A DNA stretch of 31,888 bases from a virus, in IMG/VR virus record IMGVR_UViG_3300020424_000014, positions 1 through 31,888 of that record; one strand, written 5' to 3'. Shown piece by piece: positions 28,747 to 31,588 of the stretch; position 1 is the stretch's first letter, and each line of letters opens with the position of its first letter. The position numbers were made by a program, and so were the translations under genes. The notes beneath the pieces are model-generated. The model was not told the DNA's origin, ran no database searches, and worked only from the letters and a program-made list of their open reading frames with translations.

Positions 28747-29082
28747 TTACTTCTTCTTATCTACATATGCATTTGCACCGAAGTAAGCTGCAACTAATGC
28801 TGAGATTGCAACAAAATATGTAGGTGCAATATCACCAATAATTTTTGCAGTACCTTCGTATCCTAACATTGACGTAACTAAAATTCCTAATGGATATAAC
28901 AACATACCCATCAATGCAAACCATGTCATCTTACGCATTGCATCTCTACGAGCATCTGCATCTTCTAGTTCTTTTCTTTTAAATTCCAAATCCATCTCCA
29001 TTTCTTGTTTTGAAATGTGACCGTCACCATTTCTATCTTTAGCTGCGACCTCTGGGTCTACAGTTTTGATTTCTGCGTTCAT
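28747..29082 (-). CDS. EF-hand membrane protein
   Basis: A 111-residue protein. Residues 16-27 form a canonical EF-hand loop DRNGDGHISKQE (D16, N18, D20, G21, I23, S24, E27), so calcium binding is likely. A charged helix (30-50) and two transmembrane helices (~53-74 and ~85-107) follow. It sits between the gp26 extension and the tape-measure gene; its ATG overlaps the extension stop (TGATG). I recall similar proteins in marine T4-like phages. A role in ejection or membrane contact is inferred. Confidence 0.75.
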   Translation of the reverse strand: MNAEIKTVDPEVAAKDRNGDGHISKQEMEMDLEFKRKELEDADARRDAMRKMTWFALMGMLLYPLGILVTSMLGYEGTAKIIGDIAPTYFVAISALVAAYFGANAYVDKKK

Positions 29083-29279
29083 CAGTATCCCCTCTTTTCT
29101 GACTCTCTTCGCAATCTTTCATTCTCTTCTTTTATGTAGTTATCTAACATTCCTACATAAATTTCCCTTTCCCACGGTATCATACTATCTAATTCACCTA
29201 AACTATAATTAAAGTGTTGCATCATAGTAAAGTTTGTCTGATAATAATTACCAAGACTGTCATGAGAAAGGGCTACTCT
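29082..29279 (-). CDS. -1 frame extension of gp26 (GT-like tail chaperone domain)
   Basis: The 190 bases between gp26 and the EF-hand gene are not empty. In the -1 frame relative to gp26 they are open for 65 codons, ending at TGA 29082-29084, and encode RVALSHDSLGNYYQTNFTMM followed by QHFNYSLGELDSMIPWEREI and a charged helix. Slippage at 29279-29285 would give a 298-residue fusion. A separate start at ATG 29225 (47 residues) exists but has no Shine-Dalgarno site. The region lies upstream of the tape-measure gene, like the T domain of lambda GT. Confidence 0.75.
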   Translation of the reverse strand, partial: RVALSHDSLGNYYQTNFTMMQHFNYSLGELDSMIPWEREIYVGMLDNYIKEENERLRRESEKRGY

Positions 29280-29977
29280 AAAAAACTTTGCAGTCCTTCT
29301 ATTTCAATCTCACTTTCGACTTCAGTCTTGGGATTTTTCACTTTTACTTTATGAGATAATTTTGGTGTTCCCTCATAAAATTGTTGTATCTTTTCAAACT
29401 GTTCAGAGTTCAATGAATCGATAAAATCAGATAATTCCTCTTTTGTAAAGTCCTCATATACATTATCTTTATCATATATATTTTTTGTTGTTGATGCGAT
29501 AACATCAAAAGTAAGTTTGACTGCTGATGCATCTGTATCAATACCCATAAGGTCTTTTACTTTTGGATATGTTAATGTAATACCAATATCATCAGTCAGT
29601 TGTATTACCTCTTCTTTTTTAGGTTCACCCTTCAATTTAACATCATTTAAATCTATTTCAGTCATAACCCTAGTTTTTTCATCATCTGGACATAACAAAT
29701 TTAGAGTTACTTTGTCACCTACTGATTTACCTCTAATTTTTAAGAAGAGATATTCCATATCATAAGTTGGTAAATCTTCTGGTTTCCTAATCGCACCAAA
29801 GGTACAAGTTTTAACAATATCACTAGTTGCTTTAATTAAGTCAGATGATTTGTTTGTTTCTTGTGCCATCATCAATATTTTTTGTTCCTTGACTAAAAAA
29901 GGTCTGTAAGAAATCTTTTGTTTAGTCGAGGGTAAATTCAACTCATACGTTGGATTATTGAGTTGTGGTAAAGCCAT
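29273..29977 (-). CDS. 26: Baseplate hub / tail chaperone protein, T4 gp26-like
   Basis: A 234-residue protein of the T4 baseplate (gp26/gp51) family. YRPFLVKEQKILMMAQET, the short CTFGAIRKPEDLPTYDMEYL and FLKIRGKSVGDKVTLN followed by LLCPDD are the family core. It has AGGAG upstream of its ATG. T4 gp26 is 208 residues and acts in hub assembly. Here the end carries a slippery heptamer and a -1 extension, so two products are expected. Confidence 0.8.
   Translation of the reverse strand: MALPQLNNPTYELNLPSTKQKISYRPFLVKEQKILMMAQETNKSSDLIKATSDIVKTCTFGAIRKPEDLPTYDMEYLFLKIRGKSVGDKVTLNLLCPDDEKTRVMTEIDLNDVKLKGEPKKEEVIQLTDDIGITLTYPKVKDLMGIDTDASAVKLTFDVIASTTKNIYDKDNVYEDFTKEELSDFIDSLNSEQFEKIQQFYEGTPKLSHKVKVKNPKTEVESEIEIEGLQSFLE
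29279..29285 (-). other. Probable -1 ribosomal frameshift site
   Basis: Read on the minus strand this is T TTT TTA, a canonical X XXY YYZ slippery heptamer in the correct phase of gp26, two codons before its TAG stop (29273-29275). Confidence 0.75.
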
Positions 29978-29998: not shown

Positions 29999-30745
29999 CT
30001 AAAATAATCGCCTTATTACTTGTGGAACTTTAATCTGTAATTGTCGTGCAACAGAATTCTTAATTAAGTCTGACAATGTACTTTCTGTTGGTGGTTTACT
30101 TGAAACCGACTCAGACGATAAGTTCCTAAAATACCTATATTTAAATCCTACTGAAACTGTGTTTACTGAAGATACTTTTTCATGACTAAATGCAACTGCA
30201 CCAACTGTATCTGGATATGCTTCCTCTAGTCTAACACCAAAAGTTCTTTCATCTTGTTCATTTAATGCAAAGATGTCAACACTTCCAACATACTCTTTGT
30301 AATAATTTAAATTGTAAGTTTCTGGATTGAATGTGCATTTTTGCCACTCTTCAAAGAAGTATCTCTCACCTAAATCTGTTCCAAGATAAAATACTGCTTG
30401 AACTGAACCATATGTTTGTTCTCTTACTATCTCATGAGAAGGCCCATATACGTTTGTATTTCTTGCACCAGTTAGTGTTCTATCTGGAATTGATATACTA
30501 CTACAACGAAATGATATTCGTCTAGCAACCTCTGAACCTAAATTTGAAGTAACATTTGTTGCAGATTTTCCAGCACCCATATCTCCAGATGCAGATTCAC
30601 CAGATGCACCAGATGGTAATCCTATAACAACTTCATAACGATTACCTTTTTGAAAACCCTCATCAGATGCATTATGTCTTAAAAAAGAATTAAGACTACT
30701 GAATACTGAACTTCCTAGTAAACTATTGAAATCAAATTTAGCCAT
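29999..30745 (-). CDS. Tail-tube-like baseplate protein (gp54/gp48-type candidate)
   Basis: A 248-residue protein. The N-terminus (MAKFDFNSLLGSSVFSSLNSF) is followed by a beta-rich body with NRYEVVIGLPSG, CSSISIPDRTLTGARNTNVYGPSHEIV, FFEEWQKCTFNPETYNLNYY and 'EEAYPDTVGAVAFSHE', then FKYRYF. This is the strand order of tail-tube folds, where 'YP-T-G' precedes the last strands. It sits next to gp26, so a baseplate tube initiator (gp54 or gp48 type) or tube protein is most likely. The exact member is uncertain. Confidence 0.65.
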   Translation of the reverse strand: MAKFDFNSLLGSSVFSSLNSFLRHNASDEGFQKGNRYEVVIGLPSGASGESASGDMGAGKSATNVTSNLGSEVARRISFRCSSISIPDRTLTGARNTNVYGPSHEIVREQTYGSVQAVFYLGTDLGERYFFEEWQKCTFNPETYNLNYYKEYVGSVDIFALNEQDERTFGVRLEEAYPDTVGAVAFSHEKVSSVNTVSVGFKYRYFRNLSSESVSSKPPTESTLSDLIKNSVARQLQIKVPQVIRRLF

Positions 30746-31263
30746 TAAATTATCTTCCTTGAGTCACCCCAAACTCTTGACTCTGATGCTTTCTTAAATC
30801 TCTGAACTGGTAACATGATTGCAGTCAAATTATCCTCTGTATCTATTCTTCTAAACATTGACCTAACATATCCAAACAAATATCTCTTTATAGTAGGTTT
30901 TGTAAGTGGACTTTTTTCAACTGCTTTAACACTTAACCTATTTTGACCAGCTGCATCTAAAAGTCTTGCTCTTAACGCATATGGTAAATAATGAAAATTT
31001 AGTCCATAAAAACCACCCTCTGCACCTCTAAGAAACATAATCAATGGAAAAGTATCATAATATGGTAATGTCTTTGCAAACTTAGGAGAATACACAAACA
31101 TATTTAGGAAACCAGCATGAGGTCTGTTTGCAAGTTGACCAGAACGCAGTAATTCTGGTACTGACGGTGTTCCAAGTTCTTTAATACGATTACGATACCA
31201 TTGATATGGTTCTTTACCAGTTTTAATTTGTGCAGATATTTGGTCAAAATAAGTTTCAGCCAT
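30745..31263 (-). CDS. Conserved virion-module protein of unknown function
   Basis: About 172 residues from ATG 31263 (MAETYFDQIS), which overlaps the stop of the DUF59 gene. FLNMFVYSPKFAKTLPYYDTFPLIMFL, GAEGGFYGLNFHYLPYALRARLLDA is a pattern I recall across marine T4-like phages and larger myoviruses; function unknown. Its place between gp4 and gp26 suggests a structural or assembly protein. Confidence 0.6.
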   Translation of the reverse strand: MAETYFDQISAQIKTGKEPYQWYRNRIKELGTPSVPELLRSGQLANRPHAGFLNMFVYSPKFAKTLPYYDTFPLIMFLRGAEGGFYGLNFHYLPYALRARLLDAAGQNRLSVKAVEKSPLTKPTIKRYLFGYVRSMFRRIDTEDNLTAIMLPVQRFKKASESRVWGDSRKII

Positions 31264-31559
31264 TATGTCCAACCCATCGCCATTTTAGTTTCTTCAGGCA
31301 CCATGTCCATAGAGAATGGTGGTTGAAAAGTACAGTTTGCAATACTTTCTTTTACACCATCAACCATACCAGCCTTTTGTATGTTTTGATTTATCTCATC
31401 TGCCATAGGACAAAATGCACTTGTAAGAGTATGTGTTATTTTTACCACAGTATTATTTTCTAATATTTCAATATCATATATCAGACCTAAATGTATAACA
31501 GAAATACTAGGCATCTCTGGGTCATAAACTTGTTCTAAGTTTTTGACAACTTGTGCCAT
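31263..31559 (-). CDS. DUF59 / MIP18-like protein
   Basis: About 98 residues from ATG 31559 (MAQVVKNLEQ). An in-frame ATG at 31583 lies where transcription would begin from the late promoter, so the shorter start is preferred. VYDPEMPSISVIHLGLIYDIEI and 'THTLTSAFCPMADEI' with Cys50 match the DUF59 fold (SufT/PaaD/MIP18), proteins linked to iron-sulfur cluster assembly. I recall DUF59 genes in cyanophage tail clusters. Whether it acts on iron-sulfur clusters or has become structural is unknown. Confidence 0.8.
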   Translation of the reverse strand: MAQVVKNLEQVYDPEMPSISVIHLGLIYDIEILENNTVVKITHTLTSAFCPMADEINQNIQKAGMVDGVKESIANCTFQPPFSMDMVPEETKMAMGWT

Positions 31560-31588
31560 AATTTTATTTCGTTCTTTATTCATAGTAA

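Follow-up and report, generated by a model that had tools for sequence, protein, structure and literature searches.

Introduction

In phage lambda, ribosomes slip at the heptamer G_GGA_AAG. The resulting pair of proteins, gpG and the -1 frameshifted gpGT, belongs to a system that is widely conserved in long-tailed phages (PMC5009743). In T4, gp26 and gp51 have been listed as hub assembly chaperones, and the final particle contains no gp51 (PMC3004832). For T4-like phages, TAC-N and TAC-NC were assigned by Vladimirov, Gautam and Davidson in 2022 (Virology 566:9-15), as cited in PMC10885494 and PMC12846349, and the title of that study emphasizes a mechanism other than frameshifting. The PRFect paper, citing this work, mentions separate short and long chaperone genes in some T4-like phages (PMC10885494), and the paper on phage Adele attributes to it the polyT slippery sequences of T4-like TAC-N genes (PMC12846349). 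For the TAC of Pakpunavirus Adele, Vandenendeviridae and Andersonviridae, the latter paper also proposes a -1 frameshift, on the grounds of a GTTTTT motif that is conserved and a -1 frame that is open. In addition, Sullivan et al. (2010) described gp51 of cyanophages and marine vibriophages as being without its first ~200 residues, with cyanophage gp51 at 20% length (PMC3037559).

A frameshift in gene 26 is therefore not categorically new, as T4-like tail chaperones with polyT slippery sites are already in the literature. An earlier note on the DNA studied here had treated such an arrangement in the T4 gp26/gp51 family as lying outside textbook knowledge. The window covers positions 1 to 31,888 of the IMG/VR virus record IMGVR_UViG_3300020424_000014. 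In this window, which comes from a marine T4-like phage, gene 26 very probably encodes a tail assembly chaperone in two forms, produced, as we infer from the sequence, through a -1 frameshift at T_TTT_TTA.

Gene 26 and its neighbors

The features of the locus are collected in Table 1. The zero-frame product of gene 26 belongs to PF12322, its profile score of 207.8 bits (E=2e-61) being above the curated cut-off of 24.5, and it aligns with positions 5-233 of phrog_150 (E=1e-62). An SD-like AGGAG precedes its start codon, and its 3' end reads CTG CAA AGT TTT TTA GAG TAG (...L Q S F L E, then stop), with TAG at 29275-29273. The earlier note had reported a T TTT TTA heptamer in phase just before this stop, a -1 frame open for 65 codons and a product of 298 residues, and all three are borne out: the heptamer is followed by GAG and then TAG, and the -1 reading continues to TGA. 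Upon slipping, base 29279 would be read twice, giving a 298-aa fusion with the predicted junction peptide ...GLQSFLRVALSHDSL.... The overlap of this TGA with the next ATG is consistent with ribosomes reading the -1 frame through to its end.

Table 1. Features at the gene 26 locus of the window, with coordinates of the whole stretch.
Feature	Position	Strand	Basis or remark
Tail tube-type protein, upstream of gp26	29999..30745	-	phrog_45, E=3e-27
Zero-frame gene of gp26, giving the short form (TAC-N-like, 234 aa)	29273..29977	-	PF12322, phrog_150
SD-like GAAGGA, candidate frameshift stimulator	29294..29299	-	9-14 nt upstream of the heptamer
In-phase slippery heptamer T_TTT_TTA, separated from TAG by one sense codon	29279..29285	-	Kept in 50/50 representatives and in both scans
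-1 frame extension (TAC-C-like, cyanophage 'gp51'), 65 codons and TGA	29082..29279	-	phrog_634, purifying selection
Weak predicted hairpin GTCT.GGTAA...TTATC.AGAC, possible stimulator	29236..29257	-	21 nt after the heptamer
-1 frame TGA, which overlaps in TGATG with the start of the next gene	29082..29084	-	
Candidate tape-measure gene, 577 aa	27012..28745	-	Position, length and hydrophobic segments only

The candidate tape-measure gene downstream is judged by its position and its length, 577 aa vs 590 aa for T4 gp29; its match to phrog_167 is not significant (E=0.49), and the search with T4 gp29 gave no match. Between the chaperone gene and this candidate lies a gene for a 111-aa protein (28747-29082, minus strand), coupled to the extension via TGATG; the protein has probable membrane segments and a motif weakly resembling an EF hand. 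Beside the tail and head genes, at 31263-31583 (minus strand), lies a gene for a 106-aa protein in which PF01883, an iron-sulfur cluster assembly domain, was recognized (E=6e-12).

The -1 frame extension

The extension alone matches phrog_634 (E=2e-25), which is the cyanophage 'gp51' family and is labeled 'baseplate hub assembly catalyst', as well as the last 46 positions of phrog_150 (235-280), and it is homologous to the gp51 C-terminus. The second domain claimed in the earlier note is thus present as a homologous domain, but it is not a new one, being that of the cyanophage gp51 family.

Relatives were gathered with patterns drawn from gp26 and not from the junction. Outside Ackermannviridae, about 170 contigs had a readable 3' end, and 50 representatives, non-redundant at 90%, were studied in detail. 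Read in the -1 frame, the extension has a median dN/dS (omega) of 0.14, vs 1.17 and 2.2 in the other frames. Over 48 codons, the -1 frame contains no stop in 39 of 39 marine representatives, the means in the other frames being 5.1 and 7.1. The downstream frame is open, under coding selection and without an independent start, a minority of distant relatives having an overlapping ATG.

In most GenBank records, the extension appears as a separate small gene ('gp51') translated from its own ATG (the MM at 29225/29222 in the window), the records of Mosig, P-SSM2 and Melnitz being among these. In the distant relatives phiN3, nt-1, Mendera, PhiW-14 and RHph_I1_9, codon 4 or 5 carries a TGATG or TAATG overlap that could indeed permit separate translation. 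Nevertheless, such a gene is a very unlikely account of the extension, as it leaves the heptamer unexplained and as T4 gp51 has the extension domain fused in frame. The first -1 frame ATG is usually found at codon 20-21, including in most marine relatives, and a product starting there would miss the conserved peptide FFRIALSHDSLxNYYKTNF, which lies between the slip site and the internal ATG and is under purifying selection in the -1 frame only; for the decisive stretch, codons 4-19, ahead of the first ATG in most relatives, pN/pS is 0.33 in the -1 frame vs 1.27 and 1.54. An SD is missing at the internal ATG in 35 of 37 genes and present at the gp26 start in 37 of 39. Up to codon 5, no ATG, GTG or TTG occurs in the -1 frame in 42/50 representatives, and no usable start lies ahead of the heptamer in 48/50; in L072, phiAS5 and Melnitz, it is only from the heptamer onward that the -1 frame is open. 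Accordingly, the separate start with a ribosome-binding site, which the earlier note had named as evidence against its reading, is not found in most relatives, and for these a gene with its own start was rejected on the late ATG, the missing SD and the selected peptide ahead of the ATG. The heptamer occurs together with a TGATG or TAATG overlap at -1 frame codon 4-5 in several distant relatives (L086, L088, L089, L091 and L095), in which frameshifting and re-initiation may both be at work.

Reading the extension as part of gene 26 also changes the annotation of hundreds of marine T4-like genomes, in which 'gp51' is either called as a short separate gene or missed. The public annotation of S-WAM1 misses the extension; in Mosig and P-SSM2 it is annotated from a downstream ATG, and conserved residues are cut off. 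In Mosig, gp26 runs on for 7 codons past the position at which the others stop.

Conservation of the slippery heptamer and its surroundings

A T TTT TTN sequence is present at the junction in every readable relative outside Ackermannviridae (about 170 contigs). TTTTTTN was found near the gp26 stop in 80/80 loci of the first scan and in all 77 readable distinct loci of the second, in which L160 was cut off. It is also present at the 3' site in 14 cultured phages, whose diverse hosts include Pelagibacter, Synechococcus, Methylophilales, Sinorhizobium, Rhizobium, Pseudomonas, Vibrio, Stenotrophomonas, Delftia, Cronobacter and Aeromonas. Conservation of the heptamer and of the -1 frame in relatives had been put forward in the earlier note as a check, and relatives lacking a slippery site as a sign against it; both heptamer and frame proved conserved. 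Two Ackermannviridae-type phages, SeSz-1 and K382, are without the heptamer. Ackermannviridae-type gp26 genes (L093 and L094) nevertheless keep an extension-like ORF in the -1 frame, and K382 has a TAATG overlap, so that another route to the extension is possible there.

This in-phase X_XXY_YYZ site before the zero-frame stop is conserved beyond codon need. Among the representatives below 80% identity, 36 of 36 have NNT TTT TT followed by A, C, T or G; background codon use is 70% TTT for Phe and 48% for T as third base, and the chance of NNT TTT in all 36 would be ~1e-17 if the representatives were independent, which they are not fully. A lone heptamer is within chance expectation, extra in-phase T6 runs being found elsewhere in ~1/5 of gp26 genes, and it is conservation that sets the 3' site apart from these. 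The window gene itself has a second in-phase T_TTT_TTA at 29900-29894 (minus strand), in a Pro-Phe-Leu near the N-terminus. TTTTTTN occurs at this conserved Pro-Phe-Leu in 2/37 genes; the second heptamer is not conserved and is thus a chance decoy and a useful control.

Upstream of the heptamer, the family consensus is GAGGG at h-14..h-10, which resembles the SD-like stimulator in dnaX-type -1 frameshifting; the window itself has GAA rather than the preferred GAG. The Glu of this element is encoded with GAG at 24:9 vs 177:629 across the same genes (p=2e-9), and the next Gly with GGG/GGC at 25:14 vs 46:250 (p=5e-10). Downstream, the predicted hairpin of the window is not significant (-5.7 kcal/mol; dinucleotide z=0.5, synonymous z=-0.6), whereas other clades have stronger hairpins close to this position. 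One conserved stimulatory structure was sought across the loci and not found: an 8-bp hairpin A located 5 nt past the heptamer (18 loci) and a 10-bp hairpin B further downstream (15 loci) are each confined to particular clades, and neither is a good match for the window. A putative pairing across the heptamer, between the upstream GAGGG and a downstream CCCTTTC, was spotted by eye.

The T run could also act during transcription, slippage on T6-T8 giving mRNAs with an altered T count. Runs of up to T8 do occur in relatives such as L063 and L069, but the majority do not exceed T6, and in many of them a C or A comes next; efficient transcriptional slippage requires longer runs. Moreover, the codon phasing and the upstream SD-like element fit ribosomal slippage instead, which makes a transcriptional origin highly improbable. 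Finally, that the run is a mere conserved Phe-Phe or Phe-Leu in AT-rich genomes (the window region has 33% GC) and the extension a decayed remnant was rejected and deserves next to no credence, since the control Pro-Phe-Leu is not TTTTTTN in 35/37 genes, T6 is retained in phages of 48-56% GC (RHph_I1_9, phiN3, Mendera and PhiW-14), and the -1 frame is under purifying selection.

Proposed route to two chaperone forms

Under ribosomal frameshifting, most ribosomes would terminate at TAG, and their product would be the short form of 234 aa. At T_TTT_TTA, a minority would slip back one base while tRNA-Phe and tRNA-Leu occupy TTT TTA, perhaps aided by the upstream SD-like sequence and, in some clades, by a downstream hairpin, and would read 65 further codons to yield a long form of 298 aa. 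If lambda gpG/gpGT is taken as a guide, the short form may be the abundant chaperone that coats the tape-measure protein, and the long form may be rare, its extension recruiting tube or baseplate-hub subunits. The slip and its low rate are our inference, and the roles are borrowed from lambda.

Relation to T4 gp26 and gp51

T4 gp26 (208 aa) spans positions 14-235 of phrog_150 and ends at the frameshift boundary. T4 gp51 (249 aa) spans positions 13-280, aligning in a single frame through the junction (hmmsearch), and it matches phrog_634 (E=1e-23). By these profile matches, T4 gp26 is the homolog of the short form and gp51 that of the full fusion. The two are separate, divergently oriented genes in T4. 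At the homologous codons of T4 gp26, TTC TTT replaces the T6 run, and the -1 frame runs into gene 25. With the short and long forms encoded as two genes, and the T6 run and the -1 extension gone, T4 has both forms without frameshifting.

In a tree of the gp26 domain, T4-type gp26 is placed among frameshifting Straboviridae (nt-1, LPCS28 and phiAS5) at a modest support of 82/80, and gp51 is on a very long branch. The tree is thus no more than a hint that T4-type gp26 originated within Straboviridae in which frameshifting persists. Whether the following broader history applies is an even question: frameshifting at gene 26 would be ancestral throughout the T4 superfamily, with pelagiphages and cyanophages as well as rhizobial phages and early-branching Straboviridae; in T4 and its near relatives, duplication of the gene into gp26 and gp51 would have taken its place, with loss of the slippery run thereafter; and the stimulators (the SD-like GAGGG and two alternative hairpins) would have turned over between clades.

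Comparison with known systems

The locus resembles lambda gpG/gpGT in combining a short protein with a predicted -1 frameshifted long protein, the first gene having its slip site near its 3' end, and in its place between a tail tube-type gene and a candidate tape-measure gene. It differs in its protein family (PF12322), its heptamer (T_TTT_TTA) and its shorter extension. Searches by sequence and by fold found no solved structural relative: the AlphaFold2 model (pLDDT 87) had no PDB match at E<=0.001 and matched viral gp26-type models only. The NCBIfam search gave nothing useful. As no solved TAC was matched, the protein is classed as TAC-like in its working and as a PF12322 member, rather than as structurally proven kin of lambda gpG. 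The earlier note's reading of a lambda-like arrangement in the T4 gp26/gp51 family is supported; the tape-measure identity of the downstream gene is judged by position and length only.

Compared with the TAC of Adele, Vandenendeviridae and Andersonviridae, which belong to other phage families than the window phage, the likeness is one of slip motif and open frame. The cyanophage 'gp51' of Sullivan et al. (2010) is a shortened separate gene in that study (PMC3037559), and here it is explained as the -1 extension of gp26; production of the extension by gp26 frameshifting would account for the stub in cyanophages and marine vibriophages and for its 20% length. T4 gp26 and gp51, whose roles in hub assembly have long been unclear, can be placed as the short and long forms of one tail chaperone, which would bring the lambda G/GT arrangement into the T4 family. 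T4 and the window phage share this family, T4 using two genes without a frameshift and the window one gene with a slip site, and together they offer a natural comparison between frameshifting and gene duplication as means of setting a protein ratio.
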